IMG/VR virus record: IMGVR_UViG_3300009593_000026
Span: 1-49,978 of that record
Reading direction: 5' to 3' (one strand)
Origin: a virus
Length of the DNA: 49,978 nt
The notes beneath the pieces are model-generated. The model did not search any database. It was not told the origin of the DNA and was given only the letters and a program-made list of their open reading frames with translations. Positions 5,001 to 49,978 of the stretch are shown piece by piece. Position 1 is the stretch's first letter. Each line of letters starts with the position of its first letter. The translations under genes were made by a program, and so were the position numbers.

Positions 5001-8000
5001 AACGCTATGAAGTTACCCTCGGCATCAAACCAACTGTTAACTAATTCGAGAGTTTTGATATTACCATCAGTAATTAAGTCATATATCAATGCTTTACGGA
5101 TATTAGTTGCGAATGATTCGTCTCCTGTATATCCACCATAATTTTGCATAGTCTTGTAATATGATTCACGATCAATATACTGATCATTAAACCATATCAA
5201 TCTTGCTGCCTGACGATACATTTCAGGTGCACGACCAAGTGTCATATTAATCATATCTGCTAATGTATTAGAAGCAGATACTACGTTATAACAAATACCA
5301 CCACCAGATTGTAATGTATTATTTTGAAGTGGAGCCTGTCTAAAGACAGATTGATTAGTAAACCAATTACCATTACCTTGAGCAGCAGTGTCAATAACAT
5401 TAATTGGATAATTAAATAACTGCATTATTTGAGATCCAACAACAGCACACTCACCATTACCAGCAGAGTCATAAGTGATTGTTAAATCACGAATTGCAGC
5501 ACGTTCACCTGTTAGTGGCCATTCGCCTGGTAGAGTTCTTGTAATACCACCAATGTATGCATCAGGATTACTAACACCAGAACCAAACAGATTGATAGGA
5601 ATATTCATCAATGTAGTAATAGCAGATGCTTCATTGCTACAACGTGCAGCACCACCACCTGTAAATGAGGTAACAGCATTACTCTGAGAACTAATGAAGG
5701 TATGAGCATAAGCACCACCAGTGTGTACTGCTGCTCTTCTAATTCCGTGAGTAGTAGCACTCACAAATGTATGAGTTGTAGTGTTAGTAGAAGGAGCAGA
5801 TGCTAGAACCTGTACAGTAAATGTGTCAGTTGTGACGTTAGAAATCGTCATAACTCTATTACTGAATGGATCAGTTGGACGTGGATATGGGTGCTCAGTA
5901 TTGTTACTATCTTCTAAGCAAGTAAAGACTAATGAATAATCATCAAGGATAATTCCATCACCATTACTCCATCCGTGATCAGGAACTGTAACTGTCATAA
6001 TACCTGTAGCAGGTAAGTATGAAGCATTAGTTACTGTCTTCTTAGTTGGTCCTTCAAATACGTGTGTATAAAGTCCACCACTACGTACTGCCATTCCCTT
6101 AGAACTTACATACTTGTGCTCATAAACTCCACCACCAAGTACTTGAGGTTTGGTGATTGAATTAGCAGCAGCAGACTGGAATACGTGAGTTGTAGTGTTT
6201 GTAGAAGGAGTTACATCTAATACCTTCACATCAAATGTGTTAGTAGTTACGTTAGAAATGCGAAGCATTCTTCCAGATGCAGGGTCAGTACTACGTGGAT
6301 AAGCGTGGTCAGATGCTTGACCATCTTGATCACAACGGAAAGTTACTGCATTATCAGCAAGATAAATGTACTCACCTTCATAGAACTTATGATTATTAAC
6401 AGTTAACGTAATAACACCTGTTGTTGGGTTGTATGCAGCACTGCTAGGTGTCCAAGTTGTCTGTTGATTGACGAAGTTATGAGTTGTAGTGTTAGAAGAA
6501 ATACCAACGTTGATTGTAATTGTTCCATCAAGATGATGAATACCATTAGAAGTAGCAGATACAAACTGATGAACTGTCTTATCAAGGTTAGCGTGTCCTA
6601 CATATACATCAAAATCGTTTGTACCTACATTAGAAATTGGTAGATACTCATCATATGAAGGATCATTTTCTCTTGGATATGAGTGAAGTGTTTCATTATC
6701 ATCTCTAGCACAAGTAAATGTGATGGAATTTTCAGCCATCTTAATACTATCTCTTGCAACTTCAAGTCCACCAGTAGTTGCAGATACAAATGTATGAGCA
6801 GTCTGGTTAGAAATTGGACCTCTACCGAAGAAATTACCAACGTTAACTTCAAATGTATTGGTACTTGCGTTAGTAACAACTAAGAAACGTTGAGATGCAG
6901 GATCACTTGGTCTTGGATAAGAATGGTTTGTAGCATTACCATCTTGAGCACAAGTGAATGTAATAGAATTATCAGCAATTCTTACTCTGTCACCATTCTT
7001 CATTCCGTGAGCAGCACTTGTTATCCTTAACATACTGGTTGTTACATCGTAAGTAGCACCAGTTACTGTCTTTTGGAGAGAGGTAGTAAACCCGTGATTC
7101 GGTATGGTGAGATTCATCACACCAGTATTGGGGTTATACTTAGCATTGGTTACAGTATGAGTAGTGTATCCAACTTGATCAATGTTAATTCCACGCTGAT
7201 AGAATGGATCCTTCTTATGGATCATACCTCCAGAAGCAATTCCAGTATTGGTATGTGTGTAAATACCACCACCTCTGATTGCAGATCTTGTTATGCAATT
7301 AGCAGTACAAGACTTAAAGATATGTGTTGAAGTATTTGTAGAAGGTGCAGTCTCAAGAACCTTAACATTGAAGGTATCCTGAGTAACAGTATCAATTACC
7401 ATCCACTTATCCCAGAATGGATCTGTTCTTCTTGGATAAACGTGATCACTAGCGTGACTATCTTTATCACAAGTGAATGTGAGTGAGTTCTCAGCGATCT
7501 TGATCATATCACCATCGTTATAACCGTGATTAGCAATAGTCACAGTCATAACACCTGTAATAGGATTGTAATTAATATCAGTTGGTGTCTTACCTACTTG
7601 CTGTACAAACTGATGAGTTGTAGTGTTTGTAGAAGGTTGTGAAGCAAGAACCTGTACAGAAATTGTAGTAGGTGTTGTTGCAATAATAGGAACAGATGTC
7701 TGATAAGTAGGATCTCCTAAACGTGGATAGGTATGATCTGTTTGATAGTTATCCTGAGCACATCTGAAGGTTAATGAATTAGCAGAAATACGAATCTTAT
7801 GATCAGTAGTAAATTCGTGCTCACCAATCTCCATCTCCATAACACCCGAAGTTGGGTTGTAACTTACAGAGATAGGCTCAAATCCTGTGGTTGGTGTTTT
7901 ACCAACTTGAACTTTAAATGTATTTGCTTGTACATCCTCTACTGGTAACCACTTACCGTAAGTAGGATCAGTAGCACGTGGATATGTGTGGCTTGAACCA

Positions 8001-11000
8001 TTGTTATCCATTGTGCAAGTAAATGTAAATGCATTTAACTCAAACTTAACGAAGTCTCCATTAGAGTATCCGTGGTTGTTCAATGTTAGAAGCATATATC
8101 CAGTTTCAGGATCATATGATGCTGCTGTTGGTTGAGTTACTACAGTATTTGCTCTTGGATAAGTATGATTTGTCTGGTTGCTATCTAATCCACAAGTAAA
8201 TGTTAATGAATCAGGTGAAATTCTAATATTGTCGTGCTTGTTAAAGTAATGGTTACCTATACCAAGTACCATTGTACCTGTAATTGCGTTGAAGTTAGCA
8301 GTAGAAACTGTATGTCCAGTTGAAGGAGTAGCACCAACGTTAACAGTAACCCATCCAGTCTGTTCTTTTAATCCACCAGCAGTAGCACCAACAAATGTAT
8401 GGGCAAAGTTACCACCACCAGCAATACCAACATTACAGGTGAATGTATTGGCATCAGGTGTTGATAGAACTTCTAACCAATGTCCTGCTTCTGGATCATC
8501 TGCTCTTGGATATGTGTGGTTAGTAGCGTTGCTATCTTTAGTACAATTGAATGTAATTGAATTAAGATCAAACTTAACTAAAGTAGGAGCAACGTGAATA
8601 CTATTACCATTAGCTGCTTCGAATACGTGAATACTCTGATCAGAGATAGCACCACCTAAAGCATTTGATCCAACATTAACTGTGAATCTATTTCTAGATG
8701 CTTTCTTAACTATTAAGTAAGTTCCTGATGCAGGGTCAGTTGATCTTGGATATGGGTGAGTTGAACTGTATTGGTCTTTAGAACATCTGAATGTAATAGC
8801 ACCATCATCGATCATTACACTATCACCAACAGCAAGTCTGTTGTCTGCAGAATAAACTTCCAAATCACCTGTTGCTGGATCGAACTTAGCAAAGGTTGGA
8901 GATATTGTACGCTTAGACTGGAATCCGTGATTATTAATAGTTGCAGTTAATACACCACTTGTAGGAGTATAAGTTGCACCAGTAATAGTATGAGAGTTAG
9001 AACTTGACTCTTTTATTTTTAAAGCAGTGTTTCTAGCAGGGTCAGTTAGACGTGGATAAACGTGCTCTGAAGCGTGACTATCCATATCACAGGTGAATGT
9101 TAATGCTTCATCTGCAATCTTAATAGTAGTACCATCGATTAACTTATGAGCACCAACCTTAATCATCATATCGCCAGTTTCGCCATCATAATTAGCATCA
9201 CCAACGCTATAGAATACAGCAGGTGTTGTACCAACGTTAACAGTAACAGAACCAGATTCTAGTTCTACACCATCCTTCTCAGCAGAAATAAACTTATGAC
9301 TGTAATTACCACCAGTAGTTACACAATTATTTGTGGCAGATATAAATGTATGCTGAGTTACGTTAGTAGATGGAACAACTGGTAAAACGTTTAGAGTAAT
9401 AGAAGTAGCAGTTGTACCTGTAATTTCTAAAGAGTTACCATATACAGGGTCTTTAGACTTAATAATACAATTAGTTTCAGCACGAACGAATGTGTGAGTG
9501 TAGTTACCACCTGTTGTTATACAAGCAGGTACTGCTTCCTTAAAGATATGAGCAGTTGTATTAGAAGAGATACCAACATTAACTGTAATAGTATCATCCT
9601 TTTTAATAATTCCGTTAGATAGACCAGAAACAAATGTGTGAGTTGTAGTATTTGAAGATGGAATAGCATCTAATACTTGTACACTAAATGTAGTTGCATT
9701 TGGAACAGTCATAACTCTAATCCACTTATCACTAATTGGATCAGTTGCTCTTGGATAAGGATGGTTAGAAGAATTACTATCTTCTAAGCAAGTAAAGGTT
9801 ACTGCACCATCTCTTAACTTAACATAATCTCCAACAACTAATCCGTGATTAGCAGATGTTGTTACCTCAAGAATACCTGTAGTTCCACTGTAAGTAGTAC
9901 CACTTGCAGCAGTCATTGGAGTACCTTCGTACTTAATGTTAACTGATGAATCGTATGTTTGGTCTTTCTTAGCAGTTAGAGAACCAGCAGTTGAAGAAAC
10001 ATAAGCGTGTGTGTAAATACCACCAGCTCTTACAACACATCTCTCAATACTATTAGCAACAGCACTTACAAAGTTGTGAGTTGTAGTATTGGTTGAAGGT
10101 ACATTCTCTAGAACTTGAATACTAAAGGTATTAGCATCAATGTATGTGATAGGAATAAACTTATTAGATACAGGATCTTTTGGTCTTGGATATGAGTGAT
10201 TAGTTTGATCACTATCTTGACCACAAGTAAAGGTTACAAAATTATCATCAACTTTAATATGATCTCCATTTACCATACCGTGTCCAGTAACAGTAAGAGA
10301 CATAACACCTGTTGATGGGTTATATGATGCTCCAGTTGGAGTTAACTTAGTAGGAGCCTGCCAAGTATGAGCAGTTGTGTTAGTAGATGGTTGTGAACTT
10401 AGAACTTGAACTGTAATTGTGTCTGCTGTAGTCTGAGTAATTGCACAAGCAGTATCATAGAATGGGTCATCTTGAGTAGCACCACCTTGACCTGAAGCAC
10501 GAGGATATGAGTGATCAGTAGCATAATTATCAAAGGCACATTTGAATGTAAGTGAATTCTGAGAGAACCTTACAGATTGACCAACAGATAAATTATGTCC
10601 CTGTCCAATGGTCAATGTCATTAAACCTGTTGTTGGATTGTAATCAACCATTGTTGGAGCAAATCCAACAGTAGGAGTCTTACCAACATTAACAGTAAAT
10701 GTTGTATTACCAGTTACATCAATCTCTAACCACTTACCAGATGCAGGGTCAGTTGATCTTGGATATGGATGGTTAGAACCATTACCGTCCATAGAACAAG
10801 TAAATGTAATAGCACCATCAGCAAACTTAACTTTATCACCATCCTGAAGACCGTGATTAGCAGCAGTTGTAACGGTCATTATTCCTGTTTCAGGATCATA
10901 AGAACCGTTATTAATGTCAGATACTGTATAAGTTGTATTTCTAGGATAAGGGTGAAGAGTTTGATGACTATCTTGTGCACAAGTAAATGTAATACCACCT

Positions 11001-14000
11001 TCAGCAATCTTAAGTGCAGTTCCTGCAGTAAGACTATGATTACCAATGGTCATCTTCATATCACCAGTAGTAGGGGTGTAATCCACTGCTGTTGGTGTGA
11101 AACTTACTTTAGGTGATTCACCAACTTTAAAGGTAAATGTATTTGTAGATACTGCTTCAATTCTCATCCAAGAATTGTTTGCAGGGTCATCTTGTCTTGG
11201 ATATGGATGCTCAGAAGCATTTCCGTCCATATCACAAGTCATCACAATTCCGTTCTTCTCAACGTGAACCATTTCACCAACTTTGAATCCGTGGTTAGCA
11301 ACAGTAACAGTTAAGTGACCATTAACAGGATTGTAAGAAGCATCAGATGGAGTAACAGTAGTTGTTTGAGCTCTTGGATATGTGTGGAAGGTAGCATCAT
11401 CATCTTCCTTACAAGTAAATGTTAAGGAGTTAGGTGCTAACTTAATATGAGTACCAGTTGTTAAACCGTGTACACCAAGTATGAGTTCTAAACCACCTGT
11501 TTCAGGATCATAGTTTGCTTGAGATGGTGTGAAGTATTTGATAGGAGTCTTACCAATACTCATATCAAAAGTATTCTTAGTTACGTTTGAGATTGGTAGG
11601 AAACGTCCACTAGCAGGATCAGACAGTCTTGGATATGTTTTCTTGCTGTAATGCTCATCCATATCACAAGTGAATGTCATAGAATCGTTAGCAAGTCTAA
11701 TCTTGTCACCATTCTTAAATCCGTGATTAGGAACGGTAACATTCAACATACCAGTAACAGGGTTGAAGTCTGCCCAAGTTGCTGTATGGTGAGTTGTTCC
11801 AACTGAAACGATATCTAATGCTTTATCAACTGCTGGATCAGTAGCACGAGGATACTTATGAATAGATCTATAATTATCCTGAGAACAACGATAATTTAAT
11901 TCATCCTGAAGAATCTTAAGTGTTTGACCTTCTCTTAAACTATGAGATCCAATATCAAGAGTTAATAGACCTGTTTCAGGATCATAAGTAGAATCTTTAG
12001 CATCAAAGTTAACTCTCTCTGTTATACCAACATTGACTGTAATATCGTTACCACTTACGTTCGTGACGGGTAGTAAAGCAACAGCTGCTGGGTCGGAAAT
12101 TCTTGGATAAGTATGTTGAGTCTGATGATCATCTTGATCACAAGTGAATACAAGTGAATTTGTATTAATTCTAATTGTATCGTTAGTAGTTACATTGTGT
12201 GATGCACCTAAAGTTAAAACTAAATCACCAGTTGCAGGATCATAAGTTGCTGCTGTTGGAGTATGTTGACCAGATGCAGTTTGTTGATCGATAGTAATTT
12301 CATCATCATATACTGGATCACCTTCTGTATAACCATTAGTAGCAACTAACTGTTGTCTCATTACTTGAATAGCAATATCTCTTGCTTGTTCAAATACATA
12401 CTTAACTTCATTTGGTTGACCATTGATATGCTGAACAGCATTAGCATCAGTAACATAGAACTCAGTGGCATACCACATCTTGTTATTACCACCGTGTGAT
12501 AAGTTGAATATCAATGCTTCTAAAATATCAACACAATCATCAACACAAGACTGATAACCATATCCACCAAATCCTAATGATGGGTACTGAGAAACACCAC
12601 GACCAACAGCAGTAGAAGCAATAAATCTTAAGTTATTTCTAATTTCATCAGCAGCGTTATATGCCTTATTACCAGACTCATTATTATCATAATCACCACG
12701 TGCTGCACCACCGCCACCTTGGTTACCACCTTGACCACCGCCACCTCCACCGAAGCCGCCACCGCCACCTTGACCGCCACCAGCTCCACCACCTGCAGAA
12801 TAATCAGGGTAGGGATTAAACCCTAACTTGTTCTGGATCGCCAAAGCAGACATATCCCTAGCCATCTTCATAGCAAAGGCAGTTTCTTCAGTCTCATCAG
12901 TAACGTGCTTCAGTCCATTCTCAGTATTCAGATATAACATCGCTGCATCATAAGTTGCAGAGTTAGAATTGAATCTAAGGTCGTGAATGATAGCTTCGAT
13001 AACGTCAACAATATCATCTTCACAATGATTCTTACCACCTTTAACACTGAAGTGATAATGTTTAAATGCAGAACACTTAAGCATAAGATCAACTGCTTCA
13101 CCTGCAATAGCACGCTTATTAGTTTCAAGCATATCAGCAGCATCTAATGCTCTCTGAGAACCTGCATAGATTTGAGGATCGTGTAAGAAGGTAGATTCAG
13201 TTGCCTGATCCTTACGGAATGCAGTGAAATCTGTATATTGGAATTGGAAGAAGTCGTCAATAGTTTGAGCAGTTGTACCAGCAAGATTTGCAAGGTTTTC
13301 ACTACGTCCAACTAAAGCATTCTGTAGTGCCTTCTCCATCAACATCTTAGAGTAACCAATTGCATCAAGCATTGGAAGTAATTCTTCTTCAACTTGAATG
13401 ATCTTACCTGTAGAATCTAAGTATTGATCAATAATACCTTGAACGTTAGCATTACCACCAGTTAATAAGTCACCAGCAATAGCAGGTATAATATGATCTC
13501 TAAGGTCACGAACACACTTATCACGACCTGGAGTACCACCAGGAATGTCAAACTTATCTTCCTGAATGAAGTTAATAGTTACGTTATACTGTTCTTCTAA
13601 CCAGAAAGCAACTTCATCAGCGATACACTTACGGTTGAAGTATAGTAAATCAGCACCATCTCTAAATCTGTTACCTGTAGGACCAAGAACTAATAGTAAA
13701 CTATCTACTAGATCAGTAATAAAGGTCTGTATACCAGCAGCTGCAGGAGATGAGAAGTAGTTAGGAATACGAATACGTGTTGTATGCTCACCAGTTAGGT
13801 CATCAGCATTAGCAGTAATAACAGTATTGCAAAGTTTACCAACTTCTCTCCAAGCATAGATGGATTGAAGCAATTCTCCGTTAACGTGTGCTAATTGTCC
13901 TTCTTGGTTAGCAAGATATCCTCTTGCAGCAACGATACTATTAAAGTTACCACCATACCTTAGATCATTAACGATAGCAGGTATAATGTATTCATAAGTA

Positions 14001-17000
14001 TCTCTTAAGCAAGTTTGTGTACCTTGATCTGAAGTACCAGTATCACCAGGTATCACAAAGTCAGGATACATAGCCTTCATTCTACCGACTGCTTCTTCAG
14101 CAATCCAGTACTTGTTCTTGTCAATAATATCGGCACAATCAACATAATCATCACGAGAAAGATCAACTCCCTCAGTCATAATCTCATCACGCCATAGTTC
14201 TACACCCTCAGCAGTAGCAGTAGAAGTTATAGTTTGTTGGAATGTAGCATAAATTTCACCCTTAATAATAGGAATAGGTGCTTCACCATTAAATCCAAAC
14301 TTAAGATTTATATCTGTATCATCATAAGTTCCACTAGGAGTAAAGTCGCTAGTATAATCAACAGCAGTAGAACCTAACTTAATCATTAGGTTCTCCATAT
14401 TACCTGTAAATGCTTGAGCATTAGCAGCATTAGCACCAATCTTAACTGGCATATTGCCATAATTGGTGTTATCAGTATAAGTTGTGGTTTGTTTAGTACC
14501 ACCAACGTACATATTTGTAGCACCACTATTTCTTACGATAGCGATATGAGTCCAAGTATTTGCTGCTAGATTTGCACTTGATGTTATTCTGTCAACATTA
14601 CCAGTGTTCCAACGAACAGTGTTATTGACCATAATCAAGTAAGCAGAACTTGTATCACCAGTTGAAGTACGGAAATCTAATAATGTTTGGTTACCACTAA
14701 CACCTGTTGCTTTAACCCATAATTCTATAGTGAAGTTACCATCAGGAATAGATCCATCACCAAATGCAACTTTCTCAGTAGATGGATGTGTTAGATATGC
14801 ACTACCATTAAATTCAAGAGATCCAGCACCAGCAGCATAATCTAAATTATCTACAGTTACGTTAGTATTAACTAAAAGACTATTAGTAATGTATTCTCCA
14901 TCATTGAATGCTCCTGAAGGTTGTTTACTATAGATCCACTTATTACCTGCATTAGAACCAATGATCTCAGCAGTAGATCCAGATGTTATACCTTTAACAA
15001 TTTCACCGAAGACAAAGAATCCACCAGAAGACTTATCTTTATAAGCGTGCTTAATAGACTTAAGTGTCTCAGAATCACTGAATGAATATGGAGGTGCAAC
15101 TCTAGTTACATTTGAAATAGACCAAGGATAAGTTCCAGGTGCAGCACCAGTTGGATCCTGTAATGAATCAGTGATAATTGCAAAGTAATTAGTAATAGCA
15201 GATGTTACGTTTACACAAGCAGTTGTAGAAGGATTTGCCATCAAAGCAGTAGATGGTTCAGTCTTCGTTGTTCCAGCTTGGAATGCTGCTCTAGTTCCAG
15301 GTGATGCAGTAGTACCTAGGGCATTAATCAGAATATTCGCTAGGGTGGTTATTGTTGCAGCAGGTGCCTGACAAGCAGGAGATGCACCATCAGCAGTAAT
15401 ACCACTATCAGTAAATTGTGTCCAACCGTGTGAAGTATCTTGCTTGGCATATACAACGTTCCTCTGAACATTAATTGCTATATCTCTTGCCTTAGTAAAG
15501 GCATCTACCATAGTATCGATATCACCAGTTACAGTACCATAATGAAGAATACGATCTGTTGCTTCCCAAACAAAGTCATTACCACCAACAGCAGTGTTAT
15601 ATGCAATTGCTTCAACAACATCAACTATATCTGACAAGCAATGTGAGTCACCACCAGATACTGTATAACCAGGATTCTGTTGTTTAGCATAATACAATGC
15701 TTCGTGAGCGATATACCACTTGTTAGCAAGTAATAGTGCTCTAGCATCAGCGTGACTATTATCAGTTACACTATACTCACCAGTAACAGTTAAGTCTCTC
15801 CACTGCTGTAATGTAGTAAATGAAGTATCAATATCCTCCATTCTTATGCACTGGAGTGCTAAGTCTCGTGCTTTATTCATTGCCCAAACTGTTTGAGATT
15901 CAGCACCATCAACGTGATATACAGTGTTACCTTGAACGTAAGTATTAGCAATATCCCAAACTTCAGAGTTACCATCAAACTCTAACTGCCAAGCCATCAT
16001 ATTGATAGCATCTACAATATCATCTTCACAATCTGCATTTCTACCAGTATTGATTTGGAAGGAGGGGTAGAAATCTAACATTGCTCCCACGGCTTCTTCA
16101 GCGATAAATCTCGCATTACGCTGCAAAGCGTTAGAAGCATCATTAAGACGTACATCGTGAGTCCTTCTTAGAGATGAATTACCAAAGTAAATCTTCTTAA
16201 GACGAATGTCAGAACCAGCAGCAAAGTCAGTACCAGTTAAATTGTCATAACGTATCTCTTGGTTACGAACTCTCTCAAAGTCTAGGAAGTCTTGGTTATT
16301 AGCTGTCTCAGGATCATATAGTTCAACAGGGTTAATAACTGTTTCTGATATGTTATCAAGTATCTTATTAGGGAAGGTAATAGAAGGTACCCTCTGGAAT
16401 ACTAATCCAAAGAAGGAAGAACTAGGTGATAGGTCTACCTGATCAATAATTTGGTTAGATATATCATCCTGATAAGGTGCAATACTTGTAATAGTTGCTG
16501 CAATCTTAGAACGTGCAGAATAAATGATATCATTGAACTTGATATTAAATTCACCAGTCTCATACTTAGCAGTACCAGAAGTACGTGAAAGAACTAGTTC
16601 ATTAGTAATAACACCATCTTGTAAGTTATTCTCTTCAATAATAGCAAAATTACCAGCCAAATTAGTGATTCTCTCACCTTGTTCGTAGATAGTCTTAGAA
16701 GTTAAAGGAGAAATATCACCTAAAGTAGAATTGAATCCAGTCTGTGAACCCATTATACTTTCATTAAGTTGGAAGGTTCCTTGTATGTCAATAACGTCAA
16801 TATAGTCAACACCTGAATCTATGCAAGTTGCAGTTGCTTCTGATACCAAACCACGAACAGTATTACCTAAAAGTGGGAAAATACCACCAATAGAACTGAA
16901 TGTCATTCTAGTGATTACTTTCTGAGCATAAACTGCTTCACGGAACTTAATTCTAGAAGGTGCTTTAGGTGCTTCAGTAAAGACAACAGAAGGTCCAGCT

Positions 17001-20000
17001 GTTGAGAATGCAGTACCTGGTGACTGTGCAACACCATTAATCAAGATAAACATCTGATTATCTGCTGCAGTTATGGAACTACCTTCTACATTAAGAGGGA
17101 ATTGGGTTTTAATTCCATCAAAGTCATCAGAGATGTTATCAATCTTCTTAACGATAGAGGTTAAGATTTCCTCTGAGTTAGTTAATCTCTTCTGTCTGAA
17201 CAGTACCTCAGTATTATTAAACTGAGTATAAATGGGTTGTGCGTTAGCAAATGATGTAATTTGATTAATATTAGTGAAACTATTGATATTAACTTCTTTA
17301 ATAAGGTCAGATACAACCTTTCTTCCAGAAATATCCTTACCACCAGTGATTGCTAGTTCACCGAAGAGGTTGAAACCAACAGGGTGGTTTGTTTCTAATA
17401 CAGGCTTTCTCCACTGGTTAATAGGTGTTTGAGACTTAATAACGTATGAGAAGTTCTGATAGAAGTAAGAATCTTGTATTTTTTGAACAATTTCAGATGG
17501 TTTACCAACGTCATCGATAAATTGACCAGGAGTATTGGTTAGAGAAGCAATATTCAGTGTACCAGTAGCGATTGATAGGTTATCAATCAAACCAGATGCA
17601 CGAGAAACTTCACCAGTTACACGCTCTCCAGATCTCCAAACACCATCATAGTTCTCAAGTTTAAGGATTCTAGGTCCAATCTGCCAACCTTCGTTAGTAG
17701 AAACATAACCAGTAGCAGATGCGAGTTCAAGTGAAGTACCCTGATAAACAAGTTCACCTGCAAGGAATCTAGAAGTTTCAACGATAGCAGTTGCTTTACC
17801 ACCAAATACCTCGGTGAGTAGTACCTGTCTACCTTCACCTTGAGTCAAGAATGTGATATAAGAACCAGATTCAGCATCTAACTTGGTTAGAGAGATACGT
17901 AATTGGTCTGATTCAAGTGAATTTGCTTCACCAGCAATAGCATAGTATGTCTGATTTGAGTTCAAGCTAACCAAACCTGCAGAACTAGGTTTTGGAAGAA
18001 TACCTACGGTTGATCCTAGGTCTTCTGCTCTTAACTGAACTTCAGCACCAGTTGTGATACCGTGTGGGAAGTTGAACTGTAAATAACCTAAGTCAACGTT
18101 AACAACGTAGTTAAATTCTGATTTAAGTGTAACTGAAGGTTCAGAACTGTATCCTGAGCCAGGATCCTTAATAATAACCTCAGATAGACGATTGTTCTTA
18201 ACAATTGCTTCTGCCTTAGCACCTGATCCACCACCACCTTCGATTACAACAGCAGGAACTGAAGTATATCCAGCACCTGGGTCAGTTATCTTGATCTGTG
18301 CGAGTAAAGCGGTATTAAACAGCTGAAGGTTCACAGGGAAAGTTATTTCAGGTCTCAGTGTATAATCGTGAGAATAACCGAAACCAAACTCATTATTCTT
18401 AAGTTTCTTGATCTTACCGATTGATTTACCTTGTAAGAACACAGAAGCACCCGATCCTTCATCAGGAATCACAACATCTAGTACTGCACCAGAACCTGCA
18501 AGTAAAGGTCCTAGGATACCTGGTATAGCATCTACATCAATAGAAGCAGTCTTATAACCTTTACCTGCAGATGTAAGGACAACATCAGTGATAACACCTT
18601 CAAAGTCTCCGTCATCTTGAACAGTGATGTTACAAGTAGCACCTTCACCATCTCCATCAATAGGAACGTTATAGTAAACACCATTTACGTACTCAGTACC
18701 ACCATTTGTGATTCTAACCTTCTCAATTTCTCTGTTAGATGCAATATCAGTAACGATTGGTAGTCTCTGATAGAATCCACCTGCATTTACAAGTTTGATA
18801 TCAGATATTGGACCAATTGCCTTAACTGAGGTTGTTGAGTAAGAAGAACGAGCATTGCCAAATTCATTATTACCAACAGGAGCATTTGTCTTTTCAGGTT
18901 CATTTAATAGTCTAAAGGCGAATTTTTTACCAGCATCGGTTACAGAAGTAACTCTGAATGTGCCATCATAAGGAGATTTAATAACGTCAATGAAGGATCC
19001 TTCTCCAACTGGTGAATCTGCACCTGTTCTAGATGGGTCAAAGTAATATGAAATATTAGTAACATCCTCATTAATGACGAATTTAACCAACGGAGTTGGT
19101 GAATCATCATCAGTAAATCCAGGTGTACCCTCTCTAATAATGTTAATGAATGGATATTCCAGTTTATACTGGTTATCTCTAGAGAATGATAGGAAGTATC
19201 CAAGGTTAGATTCATCATCAAGGTCAAATATGTACTGATGACCTCTAACAAAGAGGAATTTAGGATGTTTTGCGTAGATATTAACGTTAGATACTGAATT
19301 TCCACTACCAGCAAAGGTTGGATCCTGTACAGCAGTACCTCTCATACGGAATGAGAAGTCTCTTGAGTTAAAGACCTCTTCTACGAAGAACGAACCATTA
19401 TAGTCATTTGTAGCAAAGTTCTCTGTAAATATGATCTCATTTTCTACAAAATTGTGTCTACTAGAAGCAGAACAGTAAACAAGGTCAGTATTTACTAATG
19501 AACCACTAGGAATTACGTCCTTATTAAGTTGTGCAATCAAGGATATCTTCTTAACACCAGTCAAACCAGTGAATGTTGCAATCTTACCAGTAGCATCAAC
19601 AGCAAACTGAAGATTAACAGCATCGGCATCAATGGTATCTCCTTTAATGAATGAAGAGTCTTGATATATTTCTTCGATCTTGATAGTGTAATCCTCAGCT
19701 GAGAATTCTTTCCAAGAAGCAAATGCACCTAAAGTAGAACCACTATATGAAGTATTTGCTAAATCTACCTCATATATGCCAGATGCAGACAAATATGCCC
19801 AAGAAACAGCACCATCAGATACAATACCAGTTGTATGAGTAGGTGCAATAGTACCAGATGTACCAGGAGAGGTACACTGATATAGCTTCTTATCGTTGTA
19901 AACTATGTCTTCTTGTGCATATACAAAGTTAGTTGCCCAAATTGGGTCAGTCTTTTGCTCTGTAAAGTTCCATTCAAGGTCATTTACATCATTAGCAGTT

Positions 20001-35679: not shown

Positions 35680-36195
35680 TTAAAAGTAGTTTAAGTTTAT
35701 TACAATACGTCTTTCGTCAGTTGAAGTTGTTCCGCAATGCATCATAGACTCAGGAAATGTTACTAACCTGTTCCCTACTGATTCAATTTTCGAACCATCT
35801 TCAAATAAGGAAAAACCATCGTTATCATTTATATAGTAGATTGAGGTCTTTGATTCCCCTTTTTTATCATCGTTTATGTCGTTATGCATTTCAAACTCAC
35901 GGACAGCATCCGCAACTGGGGTCATATTCGCCTTCACTCGTATAATTGCCCTCGGTTTAATCTTGTTTATTAATCCTAGTATAAGGTCGTACTCAGGGGT
36001 CATAGGAACCCCATTAGAGTACATTAGGTTAAACATATGCCAGTTATACTTCTCCTTCTCAATTAAGTCAGGATCAAACATCTGGGCAATATGATTGGTC
36101 TTCCTCCCATAGTACCAAGGGAAGGTATCTGCTTCTATAGCCGTTCTTAGATGATCATATTCATACGGATCTAAGAATCTATCATTAATCTCCAT
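35680..36195 (-). CDS. 2-oxoglutarate/Fe(II) oxygenase
   Basis: The 171-residue protein carries the full facial triad of this superfamily: H104-N-D106 (FEMHNDIN), then H153 (MMHCGTTSTDERRIVINLN) and R162/R163 for the 2-oxoglutarate carboxylate. Such enzymes hydroxylate proteins, nucleobases or small molecules and are frequent in T4-like cyanophages; the substrate here is unknown. The leader contains CCTCCTCCGCC rather than a Shine-Dalgarno sequence. Its neighbours are an HNH gene downstream and small unknown genes upstream. Confidence 0.85.
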   Translation of the reverse strand: MEINDRFLDPYEYDHLRTAIEADTFPWYYGRKTNHIAQMFDPDLIEKEKYNWHMFNLMYSNGVPMTPEYDLILGLINKIKPRAIIRVKANMTPVADAVREFEMHNDINDDKKGESKTSIYYINDNDGFSLFEDGSKIESVGNRLVTFPESMMHCGTTSTDERRIVINLNYF

Positions 36196-36583: not shown

Positions 36584-36740
36584 TGTTGGTTTTCTCCAAT
36601 AAAATGGTTTCGTTATCTACACTATATTCTACCTCATCACCTGCCATTAAGTCAGCTTCTGCGAATATAGTGTCTGGTAGAATAACGTACAGATCCCCTG
36701 TATGGTCATCCTCCAATATCTTAGTGGTAAATCTATGCAT
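36576..36740 (-). CDS. AbrB/MazE-like small protein, 54 residues
   Basis: Starts at ATG 36740 (MHRFTTKILEDDHTGDLYVI). The pattern ILEDDHTGDLYVILPD...LMAGDEVEYSVDNETILLEK is that of swapped-hairpin AbrB/SpoVT-type domains: paired strands, a P-D/E turn, a G-D-x-V/L-E turn and a last strand. Such domains bind DNA or act as antitoxins. No partner toxin gene is recognised next to it. It overlaps the NlpC/P60-like gene by 8 bases and the 58-residue gene by 8 bases, so it belongs to one operon. Confidence 0.6.
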   Translation of the reverse strand: MHRFTTKILEDDHTGDLYVILPDTIFAEADLMAGDEVEYSVDNETILLEKTNNE

Positions 36741-37149
36741 CTTTTCTTATCACGTAGAGTGTCTTCGGTATATAGGATTGAACTGACTCTATCTTTGAGA
36801 CATCAAATGCTAGATGATGTAATAAGTAACCTTCTCCAATGTATACAGCACAATGATTGAGACGTTTATCCAATCTCATCACCAATATATCAAACTTCTG
36901 CAGATCGTCTATATCAAAGACTTCTCCCATCTCTGATGTTTTCAGTACAGACCACCCTTCTGCCTCCCACAGGTCTTTGAGGAACTCTTTGGCGGTGAAA
37001 CTGTAGTCTTCTTTGCAGGTATGGTAGCCAATGTCCTTACCCATATCATAAAGAAGGGTGAAGCAACCCCCACCCTTAGTCTTAGACCATTCTCTGCCAA
37101 GGTAGTGGTAGTACTGGTCTTCTAATTTCTTTTTAACCTTTTTGGTCAT
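36733..37149 (-). CDS. NlpC/P60-like cysteine peptidase
   Basis: The 138-residue product looks like the NlpC/P60 papain-like fold used by phages to cut peptidoglycan stem peptides or in tail assembly. The likely nucleophile is C29 in KGGGCFTLLYDMGKDIG. The likely base is H99 in RLNHCAVYIGEGYLLHHL, and the C-terminal LYVIRK strand matches the family. It starts after AGGAAAAAA, a usable Shine-Dalgarno sequence, at the head of an operon with the AbrB-like and 58- and 65-residue genes. Other cyanophage-like genomes carry similar short NlpC/P60 proteins, as far as I recall. Confidence 0.7.
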   Translation of the reverse strand: MTKKVKKKLEDQYYHYLGREWSKTKGGGCFTLLYDMGKDIGYHTCKEDYSFTAKEFLKDLWEAEGWSVLKTSEMGEVFDIDDLQKFDILVMRLDKRLNHCAVYIGEGYLLHHLAFDVSKIESVQSYIPKTLYVIRKDA

Positions 37150-38477: not shown

Positions 38478-39134
38478 TCAAAGTCCAATGTTAAATGTTA
38501 ATGAGATTCTATTACCTTCGTTGTTTTGTTGATACCCTCGCACCATATTTGATGGATATAAACATAAACAACCCTCTGTAATTGGTACTGTTCCATCTAA
38601 CATATTGAAAGGGGTAATTTGTGTTTGATTGTATTGAATAACTGGGTAATGAGTTGATGTTACATTGCGTTTAAATTGTAATGGTGAATGTAAATTAATA
38701 TCCCAATTTACAAAATAAGTTGCACTATAAAGGCAATTACTTTGTTCGTGTGGTGCATACATTCCTCCCTTATTTGTCAATTCTAAAGTATCATCAATTA
38801 TATTAGGATTGTCTCCTAGATCATAACATAGTGATTTAGAGTTTATATCAACAACTGCTTCAATTATGTCCTCCTTAAGTGTTAGGAACTGTTCTAGGTT
38901 AAGTAAACCTAATTGACCTAATTGTAGCACCCCATTGTTTATATCTTTCCTGGAAGAGTTTGTGACATCTTCAGGCGACAATTTGCTGATATAATCTAAT
39001 ATAGTCTGTTTGTGTTGTTGATGATTAGTGAGAGATTTTACCCCTACAGGTGTCATAAACATACCGTAAACTGTGCTTTCATTCTTATCACTTATGGTTG
39101 AAAGATCGTCCGATAAAATGTTACTATTGTCCAT
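38478..39134 (-). CDS. Divergent 2OG oxygenase-like protein, iron site altered
   Basis: The 218-residue product follows the layout of the putative 2OG-Fe(II) oxygenase family with a C-terminal double-stranded beta helix: GGMYAPHEQSNCLYSATYFVN, a middle strand, then LCLYPSNMVRGYQQNNEGNRISLTFN. In the family the first motif is H.H or H.D and the second is LFPS...H.V.P.....RISI.FN. Here the first reads H129-E-Q131 and the expected distal His is R199, while R209 remains. The iron site therefore looks broken or changed. It starts just after a terminator, and no Shine-Dalgarno sequence is visible. Confidence 0.6.
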   Translation of the reverse strand: MDNSNILSDDLSTISDKNESTVYGMFMTPVGVKSLTNHQQHKQTILDYISKLSPEDVTNSSRKDINNGVLQLGQLGLLNLEQFLTLKEDIIEAVVDINSKSLCYDLGDNPNIIDDTLELTNKGGMYAPHEQSNCLYSATYFVNWDINLHSPLQFKRNVTSTHYPVIQYNQTQITPFNMLDGTVPITEGCLCLYPSNMVRGYQQNNEGNRISLTFNIGL

Positions 39135-43144: not shown

Positions 43145-44059
43145 TCAGTTTGTGAACTGGAACAACCCTAATCGCTTCTGAACTAGGTTAGAATAGTCGT
43201 TATGTAACTCACATCCTATGTAATGCCTACCCAGTTCCCTTGCTACCATTGCAGTTGTGCCTGATCCCATAAATGGATCAAGAATTATGTCATTTTGTGA
43301 AGATCCTGCCTTGATACAAGGTTCTATCAAATCAGGTGGGAAAGTAGCGAAGTGAGCACCTTTATAAGGTTTGGACGTGACTGACCACACACTTCTTTTA
43401 TTCTTCATAGGATATGATTTGGTCAATCCTGAATGTGGTTGCAGTCCAGTTCCTTTATTGTGATACTTGCCATTGGTTCTATCTCTGGTTCCCCAGTCCT
43501 TAGCAGGTTCTTTGATTGCTTCATTATCATAATAATATCTCTTATTCTTTGATAATAAGAAGATATATTCGTGAGATTTAGTGCATCTATCTCTAACACT
43601 TTCAGGCATTGGATTTGGTTTATGCCATATTATATCTTGACGTAAGAACCATCCATCATCCCTCAAAGCAAATGCCAACATCCAAGGTATACCAATTAAA
43701 TCCTTAGATTTTAAGTTATCAAACTTGTTACCTCTAACTGGTGTAAATGTTGGTAAATCTTGATTAGTTTTAGATACTGTTTGCTTAGGATAATTACCAT
43801 CTGATCTGTAATTATAGTATGTGTCACCTATGTTCACCCATAGTGTTCCATCATCCGTAAGTACATCACGAACTGACCTGAATACTTCAACTAATTGTTT
43901 AATGTATTCTTCAGGTGTTTGTTCTAATCCAATTTGATTGTCCTCGTTACCATAGTTTCTTAAACCATAATAAGGCGGTGATGTTACACACATCCTCGCC
44001 TTTTCATCAAATTGTTTGAGAGTCTCTCGACAATCTCCATATAATATGGTATCTTTCAT
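43145..44059 (-). CDS. DNA methyltransferase, N4-cytosine or N6-adenine type
   Basis: The 304-residue enzyme has the amino-methyltransferase catalytic motif TSPPY at 26-30 (CVTSPPYYGLRNYG) before the AdoMet-binding motif DPFMGSGTT at 261-269, which places it in the beta class. The segments IGIPWMLAFALRDDGWFLRQDIIWHKPNPMPES and CTKSHEYIFLLSKN are typical. It probably methylates phage DNA at a short site and so protects it from host or phage nucleases. TSPPY is somewhat more frequent in N4-cytosine enzymes, but the base cannot be decided by reading. No restriction gene adjoins it. It follows a 39-residue gene by one base. Confidence 0.88.
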   Translation of the reverse strand: MKDTILYGDCRETLKQFDEKARMCVTSPPYYGLRNYGNEDNQIGLEQTPEEYIKQLVEVFRSVRDVLTDDGTLWVNIGDTYYNYRSDGNYPKQTVSKTNQDLPTFTPVRGNKFDNLKSKDLIGIPWMLAFALRDDGWFLRQDIIWHKPNPMPESVRDRCTKSHEYIFLLSKNKRYYYDNEAIKEPAKDWGTRDRTNGKYHNKGTGLQPHSGLTKSYPMKNKRSVWSVTSKPYKGAHFATFPPDLIEPCIKAGSSQNDIILDPFMGSGTTAMVARELGRHYIGCELHNDYSNLVQKRLGLFQFTN

Positions 44060-44512: not shown

Positions 44513-44932
44513 TTATCCCCATCCGAATTGATTAACCTTATCAAAGAATGCTGCACGATATGTGTCACCTAATGAATTGGCATCCACATAAGGGTCACTT
44601 GTTGACTTTCTTACATATCCTTCATTATCACCACTTGTGCCTTCTATTATTCCCCATACTTTAGTATGTCCACCTCTATCAACTGGTGCTGTTGCTGATA
44701 TTACTACATCATCACCACTTGCTGCATCCGCTTTGCTGAATGTCCATTTGACACTAGCGTCATCCGCTTCAATCTTTGCTTTCTTATTTGTAAAGCGATA
44801 TTCTGCTGCTCCTGCTTGAGCACTTACTCTGGTGATGCTATCATTTACTGCTTTCAATCTATATGCCTTAGCGTTTGCTGCTAGTTGAGCAAGCAATAAA
44901 TCTGCCCAATTATTTACTTGAGTAGTTGCCAT
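44513..44932 (-). CDS. Late-expressed unknown protein, 139 residues
   Basis: The product is Ala, Asp and Ser rich (MATTQVNNWADLLLAQLAAN), with a short N-terminal helix followed by beta-type sequence (AAEYRFTNKKAKIEADDASVKWTFSKADAASGDDVVISATAPV). It has a perfect T4 late promoter box 32 bases before its ATG, TTAGGATTTAACA as a Shine-Dalgarno region and a strong terminator behind it. This single-gene late unit suggests a virion or assembly protein made in quantity. It does not match a family I know. It lies amid non-structural genes, which is unusual for a late gene. Confidence 0.75.
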   Translation of the reverse strand: MATTQVNNWADLLLAQLAANAKAYRLKAVNDSITRVSAQAGAAEYRFTNKKAKIEADDASVKWTFSKADAASGDDVVISATAPVDRGGHTKVWGIIEGTSGDNEGYVRKSTSDPYVDANSLGDTYRAAFFDKVNQFGWG

Positions 44933-44962: not shown

Positions 44963-46195
44963 TTATTTATACGATAGAGGAAGTGGTGGGATACCTTTAA
45001 CAAATATGTCGTCCACTACTCTTTGTAATCTTGCTACTGTTGCTTTACTGCTCATAGGTACACACACATAACCAGTTGACTTGCGATAGAACTGCACTTG
45101 ACCAGATTTCAGTTTATTTGAACTAATATCTGCCTTATCTTGTGGATCCATCCTTATAACTCTACCTATTGTCTGTGCCATTTCTATGAGATTCAACTGT
45201 CTCAACATAATACTGTGAGTCAATCCACTAACTGATATACCTTCAGATAGTATAGAGTAATGAAATACGATAAACTTCTTATCATCATCAGTTCCCCACT
45301 CATTTAATGTGGTCATAAACTGAGACCGTGATACTTTCTTATCGTTAACGTATGCACCAAACTTGCTAGTGACGTGTAACACATCATAACCACGATCTTT
45401 CAACTCTTGTAATAGTGGTGTTCTACCTAGCATTGCCTGAAGAACCTTAGAAGATCCAATACTGACAACCACTTTAGGGGTCAATTCATTATCATCTATC
45501 TCATCAAGTAGGTCTAGTGTTGCATCAACATCAAACTCGTGAGCATTCTGTCTAGTCCTTGTGCCATTAACATTAAATGGTACTATAGTTGGTGGTATGA
45601 TCGAACCATTGTCAATCAATTCATTAGCAGTAACATTCTCTATTACTTCACCATAAATGCTAGGTATGTTCATACCTATGAAATTAGATCTAGTTCCATA
45701 CTTAGGTGTTGCTGTGAAATAATAGTCCTTAGTTTGTTCTCTTTGACTAAACTCCTGAACAGCAGGAAAAAATGATTTAGTTGTGCTATTGTGTGCTTCA
45801 TCATAATATACTATATCAACATCATCTAATACACATACCTTATGAAGAGAATGATATGTTGTAAAGATTAGTATATTATTTGTATTGTTATCTACCCACT
45901 CTTGAATAACTTTAGGGTCAGTAGTATTCTTATACTCATTCTTACCACTATGGACGTGTAACACATCAGCATCAATCAATGATGTGAACTCAGTACATAG
46001 TTGTTGTGCCAATAGAATACGAGGTGCAACTACAACTATAGTCTGTGGTACTGGACTCTCTTCAAAATGCTTGATAGCGTGCTGTATCATTATCATTGTC
46101 TTACCACCACCAGTAGGCACAATGATCTGTCCTTTATCATTGTCACCCATTGCTTCGAGTGCTCTTTTCTGGTGTGGTCTTAGTGTGATACTCAA
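44963..46195 (-). CDS. SF2 DNA/RNA helicase (DEAH box)
   Basis: The 410-residue protein has all core motifs: LRPHQKRAL near the N-terminus, Walker A PTGGGKT (27-33), motif Ia APRILLAQQL, DEAH (132-135), TAT (161-163), and in the second domain FHYSILSEGISVSG and QTIGRVIRMD (341-350). It resembles type III restriction/UvsW-like helicases, which unwind branched DNA in repair, recombination or replication restart. There is no ATG before Walker A except at residue 16, which would remove the LRPHQ motif, so TTG 46195 is the likely start. The AAGG before it lies in an inverted repeat. The late promoter of the next gene is inside its last codons. Confidence 0.88.
   Translation of the reverse strand: MSITLRPHQKRALEAMGDNDKGQIIVPTGGGKTMIMIQHAIKHFEESPVPQTIVVVAPRILLAQQLCTEFTSLIDADVLHVHSGKNEYKNTTDPKVIQEWVDNNTNNILIFTTYHSLHKVCVLDDVDIVYYDEAHNSTTKSFFPAVQEFSQREQTKDYYFTATPKYGTRSNFIGMNIPSIYGEVIENVTANELIDNGSIIPPTIVPFNVNGTRTRQNAHEFDVDATLDLLDEIDDNELTPKVVVSIGSSKVLQAMLGRTPLLQELKDRGYDVLHVTSKFGAYVNDKKVSRSQFMTTLNEWGTDDDKKFIVFHYSILSEGISVSGLTHSIMLRQLNLIEMAQTIGRVIRMDPQDKADISSNKLKSGQVQFYRKSTGYVCVPMSSKATVARLQRVVDDIFVKGIPPLPLSYK
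44964..44971 (-). promoter_or_regulatory. T4-type late promoter, perfect TATAAATA
   Basis: The minus strand reads TATAAATA, the full T4 late promoter -10 sequence recognised by gp55-type late sigma factors. It overlaps the end of the helicase gene and lies 32 bases before the ATG at 44932. Confidence 0.7.
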
Positions 46196-47620: not shown

Positions 47621-47818
47621 TTATTCTAAATTCTCAACATACTTTAGATATAACAGATCAGTAATTTCTTCTACAGTATGTAACAACTCGTGCAGTTGTC
47701 CTTCATCTATTCTCCCTTCACTATGTGATTGATATGTTTTAGATATGAACATACCAAGAGATTTACGCAAGATGTCTTTGCTCTCGCTATTTAATATTTG
47801 TGTCTTGATTCCTAACAT
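47621..47818 (-). CDS. Hypothetical helical protein, 65 residues
   Basis: The ATG at 47818 overlaps the oxygenase stop by one base (TGATG); the GTG one codon earlier is less likely. The protein is helical (MLGIKTQILNSESKDILRKS and LHELLHTVEEITDLLYLKYV). Function unknown. Confidence 0.6.
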   Translation of the reverse strand: MLGIKTQILNSESKDILRKSLGMFISKTYQSHSEGRIDEGQLHELLHTVEEITDLLYLKYVENLE

Positions 47819-48486
47819 CACAGTAAAGGGATAAGAGAGAACTGGTCGTCTGGTAAGTCACCTCGTGTTTCTATATCAAATCCTAGGGTAATTCTATTAC
47901 CTTCGTATTCTTCATTAACACATACTTTGTGCATTCGTTCCCATCCAGGTCCGAAATAAATGTTACCAACTTCATTATTTATTTCATATAATGGACCTCT
48001 ACTATCTCTAAATTTTGTTATGCTGTTCTTTGGATCAATACTTACATATCCGTGATAATCAAACTTATGATCGTGCCAATTTAATACTTCATTTGGTTTG
48101 TGCATATTAACCCAACATTGCATCCATAATGGTTCATCAGTTCCTAACGTTGTTCTAACTACTGTCCTTATATCTTGTAGCAATAACCAGAATAGTGGTG
48201 ATGGTGCAGTCAATGAAAATAGATTATAGAACCGATAACCAGAATAGTTAGTGTCCATATTATCTAAGTGCTCTCTATCCTTCTTAACGTGGTCTACATT
48301 GAACAGAGATGGCAGTGCACCGAGTGTTAAACCCTCTTGCCTTAAAGAACTATCAAGACCAGTAAATGTCTCTTTGAAGAGTCTATAACCACGTCCTAGT
48401 TGACGTAGCATTTCTTCTTGCTCGTGCTCTACAACTGGTGATCTGTACAATACCCAGTCCTCACCATCTTTAATTTTATAGGTCAT
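47818..48486 (-). CDS. 2OG/Fe(II) oxygenase-like protein A
   Basis: The 222-residue product has H138-D-H140 in NWHDHKFDYHGYVSI, distal H186 in GWERMHKVCVN, and R198 in EGNRITLGFDIE, the layout of the double-stranded beta helix fold with an H.H iron pair. An N-terminal helical part of about 120 residues precedes it. It overlaps the next oxygenase gene by four bases. The substrate is unknown; products of such phage genes may modify proteins or nucleotides. Confidence 0.75.
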   Translation of the reverse strand: MTYKIKDGEDWVLYRSPVVEHEQEEMLRQLGRGYRLFKETFTGLDSSLRQEGLTLGALPSLFNVDHVKKDREHLDNMDTNYSGYRFYNLFSLTAPSPLFWLLLQDIRTVVRTTLGTDEPLWMQCWVNMHKPNEVLNWHDHKFDYHGYVSIDPKNSITKFRDSRGPLYEINNEVGNIYFGPGWERMHKVCVNEEYEGNRITLGFDIETRGDLPDDQFSLIPLL

Positions 48487-49148
48487 TTTTTGTTTGGATT
48501 GTAAATGATGTCATTAGCAGTAGGTGGTTGCTCTGCTAAATTGATGTTAACAACAGGTCGCCAAGTACCTACTGGTGTTGTTGATGAGTGAAATAAATCA
48601 CCCTTGAATGCCACTGCTCTACCCTTCTTAGGTGATACTCGTGTCATTTCTGTGAATTTATCCTGTTTTGCTAACTCAACATATTGTTGGGGATCTTGTG
48701 TCCTCTCGTTGTAGATAATAGTGTCACCATTTGAATTATCAATATAATATACCACATTCCAAGAGTTTTTGACATAACTGTCAACGTGTGGTAACTGAAT
48801 GATGCTAGAGCACCAAGCAGGTACGTGGTTAACTCTCATCCTAAGCAATGATTCTGCCTTTAACTTATCTCTGAACTGTAATGCTAGAGGCATAAATGCG
48901 TTGCATAATGGTGATAACTCACCCTGTTCTACTTCATACAAATAATGGAAATTACAATATCCATTGCGAGGGTCATCTTCAAATAAATCACTAATTGCAT
49001 TGTCCTTAATCATCCATTTGAGATCAGGGTTCTTAATACAATCTATTAACCAATTCTGATATACTGGTGGGATTATATCATCAAAGACAATAACGTCTTG
49101 CATATTATTAAATTGTGTCTTAAATGGTGACTGTACTGTGAACTTCAT
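48483..49148 (-). CDS. 2OG/Fe(II) oxygenase-like protein B
   Basis: The 221-residue product shows the full triad: H121-V-D123 (QLPHVDSYVKNSWNVVYYID), H187 (FKGDLFHSST) and R197 (GTWRPVVNINL). The PKKGRAVAFKGDLFHSS segment is typical of prolyl-4-hydroxylase-like oxygenases. It lies in a run of four such genes. The substrate cannot be told from sequence. Confidence 0.82.
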   Translation of the reverse strand: MKFTVQSPFKTQFNNMQDVIVFDDIIPPVYQNWLIDCIKNPDLKWMIKDNAISDLFEDDPRNGYCNFHYLYEVEQGELSPLCNAFMPLALQFRDKLKAESLLRMRVNHVPAWCSSIIQLPHVDSYVKNSWNVVYYIDNSNGDTIIYNERTQDPQQYVELAKQDKFTEMTRVSPKKGRAVAFKGDLFHSSTTPVGTWRPVVNINLAEQPPTANDIIYNPNKK

Positions 49149-49149
49149 A

Positions 49150-49812
49150 TTATGTGTAGTAGGGTGATGAGTTAATCATTGCTTGTTCTTCTTTAATGAA
49201 GTCTGCTGCTGACTCCCAAGGCATTGATAACATTGGTCGTCCATCATATTTGTTATTAGCATATTTTCCATTTGCATCAACATAAGATACGAATGCTTGT
49301 ATCTGTAACTCACCTGTGTACTTAGGTCTCCAGTGGAAATCTTTATGTCCTCGGAAGATACATATATCTCCTTGATTCATAAGAACTTGATGTGATTTAC
49401 CATCCATTTCTAAGTACAAGGGCCAATCAGTATCATCTCTTGTTATACACACATTAGCAACCCATTCACCACTTGTTCTATCTCTATGTCTTACTAAATT
49501 TGTTCCTTTAACATATACTCTGGCATAACTAAATGTTTGATGTAATTGTGTATCTAACACCTGTTCAATCTGTGGTTGTATGTGTTGTCCCATTGCTTCA
49601 AAACATACTGGTGAATACATTGCAAATGCACCTGGCATTATAGGATCAGAAGTTGGTCCCGAATACTGTGTTTCGACAACATCCTTAATCATCATATATT
49701 CTATTTTTAATTGTTCACAAGTCTCGATTGATAAACCATTACGAATGACATATAATTTGCCATCACATATAGTATCAACCTTCAAATCTTGCGTCATATG
49801 ATTGGTAGTCAT
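49150..49812 (-). CDS. 2OG/Fe(II) oxygenase-like protein C
   Basis: With the start at ATG 49812, chosen because GGGGA lies five bases before it (an upstream TTG is possible), the protein has 220 residues. The motif H109-R-D111 (NLVRHRDRTSGEWVANVCIT) and distal H160 in GDICIFRGHKDFHWRP are clear. The usual distal Arg is replaced: the segment reads GELQIQAFVSYVDANG, so cosubstrate binding may differ. It overlaps the preceding partial gene by 38 bases. Confidence 0.75.
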   Translation of the reverse strand: MTTNHMTQDLKVDTICDGKLYVIRNGLSIETCEQLKIEYMMIKDVVETQYSGPTSDPIMPGAFAMYSPVCFEAMGQHIQPQIEQVLDTQLHQTFSYARVYVKGTNLVRHRDRTSGEWVANVCITRDDTDWPLYLEMDGKSHQVLMNQGDICIFRGHKDFHWRPKYTGELQIQAFVSYVDANGKYANNKYDGRPMLSMPWESAADFIKEEQAMINSSPYYT

Positions 49813-49978
49813 TAATTCCCCTGCCAAAGAATACTAGAGTTAGTCTTGCATCATCAGATGTAGAACCATAGAAGTTCTGTCCTCCGTGATACTTACGTCC
49901 ATCAAATAGTATAGCACGATTGTAACGTGCTTGCACCTTGATAGACTCATTAAAATATGAATTACACTCCTCCTTATA
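49775..49978 (-). CDS. DUF6445-like, oxygenase-fold protein, C-terminal part
   Basis: The gene enters from the right edge and only its last 67 residues are visible, ending ...DYQSYDARFEG at TGA 49775. The visible part (YNRAILFDGRKYHGGQNFYG, then ARLTLVFFGRGI) matches the end of a family with the pattern FNR...Y....H...NYFG....RLTQVFF. It supplies the distal His and Arg of a 2OG-oxygenase-like fold. Together with the next three genes it makes a four-gene run of related folds. Confidence 0.6.
   Translation of the reverse strand, partial: YKEECNSYFNESIKVQARYNRAILFDGRKYHGGQNFYGSTSDDARLTLVFFGRGINDYQSYDARFEG

Follow-up and report, generated by a model that had tools for sequence, protein, structure and literature searches.

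Marine T4-like phages are already known to carry several oxygenase genes each (PMC3037559, PMC9602691, PMC9964418, PMC10436341). In abundant ocean phages few kinds of unexplained genes are as numerous as these 2OG oxygenases, which are usually classed with host-metabolism genes; S-CREM1 has 10 of them and S-SCSM1 has 24. The closest described systems are found in the phages syn9 and Syn10, where about ten tandem, overlapping and mostly 2OG-type genes (gp45-gp54 in syn9) come after tail-fibre genes and a pair of Trp halogenases. The array of syn9 is publicly available, and one of its genes, gp49, matches JmjC_2 (1e-16); the bacterial proteins known from this family are protein hydroxylases. In S-CREM1 a collagen-like adhesin and one Trp halogenase precede nine tandem genes (ORF72-ORF80), which are followed by small genes and a helicase. 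In Syn10 two genes at the halogenase position lie between the adhesin and the oxygenase genes, and the 530-aa product of one of them, CPUG_00131, is presumably VirX1, as it fits by protein length. VirX1, the flavin-dependent halogenase of Syn10 (PDB 6qgm), has an active site described as large and open (PMC8407142). Hypervariable islands of marine phages furthermore often contain Fe(II) oxygenases, which have been listed under host recognition (PMC3909814).

The window analysed here is the whole record IMGVR_UViG_3300009593_000026 (49,978 bp, genes on the minus strand). It comes from a marine T4-like phage of the Kyanoviridae, probably a cyanophage; the placement is supported by baseplate-wedge genes of the gp25-like and gp6-like kinds and by the protein relatives, which are nearly all found in Synechococcus, Prochlorococcus and Pelagibacter phages. 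Rfam and tRNA scans gave no matches. A preliminary description of this DNA had proposed six oxygenase-fold genes, four in tandem (47818-49978) and two lone, and gene calls together with family profiles confirmed six genes of the 2OG/Fe(II) oxygenase type in this arrangement. Most Pfam scores given below lie under the curated cut-offs, and the fold was checked by motif conservation as well.

49775..49978, minus strand: DUF6445-like 2OG-type oxygenase, 3' part, gene cut by the record end (phrog_1644 6.5e-12, PF20043 5e-5)
49150..49827, minus strand: 2OG-type oxygenase of the phrog_2954 family (2.2e-43)
48483..49148, minus strand: 2OG-type oxygenase of the phrog_274 family (phrog_274 6e-29, PF20043 4e-5)
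47818..48486, minus strand: 2OG-type oxygenase of the Oxy_5 kind, phrog_2696 (phrog_2696 1.8e-41, phrog_81 3e-8, PF13759 0.012, below cut-off)
44963..46195, minus strand: DEAD/ResIII helicase (phrog_16), neighbour outside the array
43145..44059, minus strand: N6/N4 DNA methyltransferase (phrog_67), neighbour outside the array
38478..39134, minus strand: lone Oxy_5/phrog_81 relative (phrog_81 5.4e-18)
35680..36195, minus strand: lone 2OG-type oxygenase, phrog_274 (phrog_274 3.8e-39, PF13640 8.4e-5)

The array genes had also been said to overlap, which holds for two of the joins (53 bp between 49775 and 49150, less if the 49150 gene begins at an inner ATG, and 4 bp between 48483 and 47818) but not for 49150 and 48483, which are separated by a 1-bp gap. 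The lone gene 35680-36195 adjoins an HNH-type gene and the baseplate-wedge block, and an NlpC/P60-like peptidase gene (36733-37149, minus strand; PF00877 4e-5) is located between the two lone oxygenases. The PHROG labels 'DNA endonuclease V' (phrog_274), 'ferrochelatase' (phrog_2954) and 'minor coat protein' were discarded as functional assignments on the grounds of 2OG ligands or fold; the misleading labels of phrog_274, phrog_2954 and phrog_1644 have been propagated into many GenBank cyanophage records.

As the window is the whole record, the cut gene can be completed from sister contigs only, which show about 89-98% nucleotide identity to the window. In one of them, L005 (90-92%), the DUF6445 gene is present in full length (220 aa; PF20043 1.4e-12), and the window's partial product shares 94-99% amino acid identity with the sister contigs. 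The upstream run of L005 leads back, through genes that are no more than about 120 bp apart, to a Gly-rich adhesin and two Trp halogenases:

L005:151: late-type motif NATAAATA, 34 bp before the adhesin gene
L005:185-985: Gly-rich tail-fibre tip adhesin (phrog_863 7e-51, Gly_rich_2)
L005:995-1519: small protein
L005:1526-3025: Trp halogenase 1
L005:3029-4711: Trp halogenase 2, full-length match to VirX1 (E 3e-138)
L005:4608-5495: phrog_7084 conserved protein, then small genes
L005:6230-6808: haem oxygenase (PF01126 2e-19), between halogenases and oxygenases
L005:6931-7545: oxygenase (PF13759 1.6e-13)
L005:7532-8050: oxygenase (PF13640 9e-7)
L005:8034-8723 and 8708-9403: two phrog_17480 conserved proteins, the first also a weak match to phrog_7084
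L005:9391-10053: full DUF6445 gene, followed up to 12003 by the three tandem genes of the window

Extending the sequence beyond 49978, as the preliminary description had advised, thus added more oxygenases; a glycosyltransferase, which it had considered possible there, was not found among the scanned genes of the array and its extension. The window and its sister contigs have in common at least three tandem genes of the phrog_1644, phrog_274 and phrog_2954 kind between adhesin and helicase, with the adhesin, the halogenases and the other upstream parts, the VirX1 relative included, being read from the sister contigs and not from the window. The phrog_7084 and phrog_17480 conserved proteins are interwoven with the island. 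Scans of L005 for sigma-70 promoters and terminators gave no excess over shuffled sequences.

Compared to syn9 and Syn10 the locus is clearly of the same kind, as gp52, gp53 and gp54 of syn9 match phrog_1644, phrog_274 and phrog_2954, the families of the window array, but the amino acid identity is only about 31-37%. At the 3' end the order of phrog_2954 and phrog_274 is swapped relative to syn9 and phrog_2696 comes last, no JmjC_2 protein was identified in the sister contig, and the DNA methyltransferase of syn9 is a different enzyme (25% identity). S-CREM1 (33-37% amino acid identity) differs from the window lineage in having one halogenase and no methyltransferase near its array. A helicase downstream of the oxygenase array is also present in syn9, S-CREM1, P-TIM40, S-TIM4 and S-SSM7.

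All five intact oxygenase genes are under purifying selection, with dN/dS values of 0.05-0.28 in nearly all comparisons of sister-contig orthologues with dS above 0.1, which shows that these are real genes; for the 49150 gene the values are 0.06-0.25 in most pairs. The five motifs given in the preliminary description (HRD, HVD, HDH, HND and HEQ) had been read correctly, and the oxygenases are indeed diverged 2OG-type enzymes and not recent copies; HEQ in 38478, however, is no working iron motif. In 35680 (HND) and 48483 (HVD) the H, D, H and the 2OG-binding Arg are invariant among 18 sequences. The 49150 product possesses an HRD...H motif with H114, D116 and H165 invariant, and its alignment shows a Gln at the usual site of the 2OG-binding Arg or Lys after the distal His, so that sequence does not settle 2OG binding by this protein. 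In 47818 HxH...H...R (HDH) replaces HxD in all relatives including syn9 and S-CREM1, with H138 and H140 being invariant. Thus, the iron ligands of the 2OG/Fe(II) superfamily are found in the array genes and in 35680 but not in 38478, where the third position of the motif is non-acidic and the distal His is changed to Arg in the window's clade, whereas three relatives with 46% identity to the 38478 product (L017, L018 and L020) retain this His. Judged from these residues the product of 38478-39134 probably lacks normal iron chemistry and has a changed or silent active site. It is a candidate pseudoenzyme, since its iron ligands are degenerate yet the gene is conserved (dN/dS 0.17-0.28).

AlphaFold2 and Foldseek were applied to two of the proteins, 49150 and 47818; for the other oxygenases the double-stranded beta-helix fold is assigned from profiles. 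The 49150 model (pLDDT 78.9) has this fold (Foldseek E 2e-7, probability 1.00), and its best PDB matches are PHD2, the HIF prolyl hydroxylase, whose many PDB entries inflate the match list, and a Pseudomonas P4H acting on EF-Tu. With PHD2/EGLN and the Pseudomonas P4H it shares the fold and the HxD...H ligands, but at about 16% identity and with Gln in place of the downstream Arg or Lys this is a structural likeness only. A resemblance to EGLN3 has been described earlier for 2OG proteins of marine phages (PMC12774648). The 47818 model has a pLDDT of only 66 and matches HrmJ (1.4e-5), 3bvc, 2rg4 and the collagen hydroxylase P3H1. A sequence search of the PDB for A2-A5 (A2 being 38478, A3 49150 and A5 the phrog_274 genes) found no convincing relative.

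Taken together we tentatively favour, as the best reading though with somewhat less than even confidence, that the array belongs to a late-expressed set of enzymes hydroxylating, and in part halogenating, tail-fibre or baseplate proteins. The window would then hold the 3' part of an island of late tailoring genes. In this lineage the island begins with the Gly-rich adhesin and also comprises two halogenases, the haem oxygenase, conserved proteins and six or more oxygenases of the 2OG/Fe(II) type. Late in infection the oxygenases would hydroxylate side chains of tail-fibre adhesins or further distal-tail proteins soon after their synthesis, in halogenase-bearing phages the halogenases would act on side chains of the same proteins, and the modification could change the stability or the receptor binding of the adhesin. 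This reading draws on gene content, tandem order, purifying selection, the iron ligands of the array, the adjacency to adhesin genes in many phages, the promoter-like sites and the prolyl-hydroxylase-like model, and from these we infer catalytic activity, the adhesin as substrate and a consequence for host binding. The lone oxygenases 35680 and 38478 are closer to the baseplate block and may act on a different substrate from that of the array.

The timing is read from a T4-late-type motif, NATAAATA. Of its 26 occurrences in four annotated phage stretches 24 are on the gene strand and two on the other. Among the 24 gene-strand sites 20 are followed by a start codon at a distance of 25-60 bp (for each phage, binomial P 1e-4 to 4e-9), among them sites preceding the adhesin gp38 and gp40 of syn9, the latter followed by the halogenases and oxygenases, and ORF68 and ORF71 of S-CREM1. 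The motif is not more common than in shuffled sequences, so that the evidence lies in strand and spacing only. It suggests that the arrays are expressed late together with structural genes. Within the window the motif also occurs at 44971 (minus strand), and the gene 44513-44932 starts 39 bp further on.

In order to judge the neighbourhood we counted oxygenases in phages that had been picked partly for carrying relatives of these array genes, using match lists cut at weak E-values. In 16 records 58 of the 171 oxygenases have a Gly_rich_2 adhesin within 10 kb, compared to 21.4 ± 6.6 expected (0 of 20,000 rotations, and 5 of 20,000 after removal of the window's kin, syn9 and S-CREM1). For full-length halogenases the corresponding count is 59 of 161 against 20.3 ± 6.5 (15 records; 0 of 20,000 rotations, and 11 of 20,000 after the same removal). 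In three phages that have no intact halogenase 13 of 27 oxygenases are still close to the adhesin (3.4 expected; 73 of 20,000 rotations). All of these rotation controls leave a shared hot-spot effect in the counts. Among 25 records examined, all ten with a strong phrog_863 match have a full-length halogenase 390-1190 bp from the adhesin, and the oxygenases of S-TIM4 and the second array of S-SSM7 are likewise downstream of tail-fibre genes. The region 3270-17380 of S-SSM7 (L077) is a larger version of the island, in which oxygenases, Nol-like carbamoyltransferases, heptose genes and a halogenase come after Cys/Trp/Gly-rich adhesin-like genes. On the other hand, tail-fibre regions are variable hot spots that gather accessory genes, so that proximity need not mean a shared function; about two thirds of the oxygenases in the surveyed phages are away from any adhesin, and the halogenase of S-PM2 has no oxygenase nearby. 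P-SSM2 departs from the pattern: its oxygenases stand among head and replication genes, alternating at L083:28378-41224 with gp45, gp44 and a dam methylase, and none is found within 10 kb of the adhesin-like gene; in this replication-side setting they may have another function. Perhaps a third of such oxygenases are in the tail-side setting.

A rival idea is that these are unrelated accessory metabolic genes collected in a variable region, which would draw down or respond to 2-oxoglutarate (NtcA and nitrogen) or act on assorted small molecules. A link between 2OG and NtcA has been proposed by Sullivan et al. 2010 (PMC3037559), and the oxygenases are spread all over the genomes as well as in known hot-spot regions. 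We regard this explanation as rather unlikely, as the clustering with adhesins and halogenases exceeds the rotation controls, the dN/dS values are low, and the same families recur, with phrog_1644, phrog_274 and phrog_2954 being adjacent in the syn9 array too.

The preliminary description had left the target between DNA, a sugar and a host protein. None of these is shown, and the phage's own tail-fibre proteins fit the neighbourhood best. Hydroxylation of proteins of the host, such as EF-Tu or those of the ribosome, would redirect translation or stress sensing, with the tail-fibre site being just a place where the genes settled. The match of 49150 to a bacterial P4H solved with EF-Tu and the JmjC_2 protein of ribosomal-oxygenase type in the syn9 array point in this direction. 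It is nevertheless an unlikely explanation, given that the late-promoter-like sites before the arrays suggest co-expression with structural genes and that the adjacency to adhesin and tail genes is kept across diverse phages and genome positions.

Several related enzymes standing together had been taken to suggest a stepwise modification, and the tight run does suggest that they act together; DNA bases as the target are not supported. Stepwise base oxidation in concert with the nearby methyltransferase appears very improbable. The methyltransferase, earlier described as next to the array, is 3.8 kb off, beyond the helicase and several small genes, and is no constant partner, as its presence and position differ between relatives (in L009 it is found across the helicase, besides the differences from S-CREM1 and syn9 mentioned above). 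Tet_JBP (PF12851) was found over its cut-off neither in the window genes nor in 26 related records, TET and AlkB are missing from the top 50 Foldseek matches of the 49150 and 47818 models, and a glycosyltransferase was, as stated, not found among the scanned array genes. The 3.8 kb distance is still a neighbourhood, and the P-SSM2 oxygenases among replication genes and dam mean that other members of the superfamily may have a role on DNA. An AlkB-like direct DNA repair, as proposed for genes 141 and 176 of Syn9 beside UvsY and UvsX (reviewed in PMC2984593), is the most remote of the explanations, since those are other genes elsewhere in the genome while the array adjoins tail fibres, and the best matches of the two models include no AlkB.

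Coming back to the modification of tail proteins, one gene of the array is swapped between near-identical phages. The window and the record 3300026292_000016 are 96-100% identical over 49978-44579 except for the 48483 gene and its 3' edge (60-88%), with the nucleotide identity being 60-77% at 49178-48579. In L004 and L011, which are elsewhere 94-100% identical, 48483-49148 is replaced by an allele of 68% identity. When S-TIM4 evolved on poor hosts, mutations arose mainly in tail-fibre and baseplate genes and in the 2OG gene ORF23 (PMC6224464). In the S-TIM4 genome ORF23 sits inside the baseplate block.

The literature that we searched contains no explicit statement linking oxygenases or halogenases to tail-fibre modification, and the listing under host recognition in PMC3909814 comes nearest. 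As far as this literature goes, it is new to assign a common function to the adhesin, the VirX1-type halogenase and the oxygenase array. The neighbourhood evidence points to the host-recognition apparatus and offers a candidate substrate for VirX1. In its most specific form, which we consider possible but doubtful, the adhesins would be both hydroxylated and halogenated by the late oxygenases and VirX1-type halogenases of the phage, and host range would be tuned by modification as well as by swaps of enzymes and adhesins. If this is true, the adhesin would be the missing natural substrate of VirX1. The virion of S-CREM1 has been analysed by mass spectrometry, and we found no search for such modifications in these data.

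At the other end of the window an open frame at 2087-27877 (minus strand) encodes 8,596 aa. It is located directly after the gp6-like gene, at the place of gp7 in T4-like phages, and contains YHYH and Laminin_G_3 domains, suggesting a giant baseplate or fibre protein as its product. About 90 bp before this gene a further NATAAATA is present at 27968 (minus strand).
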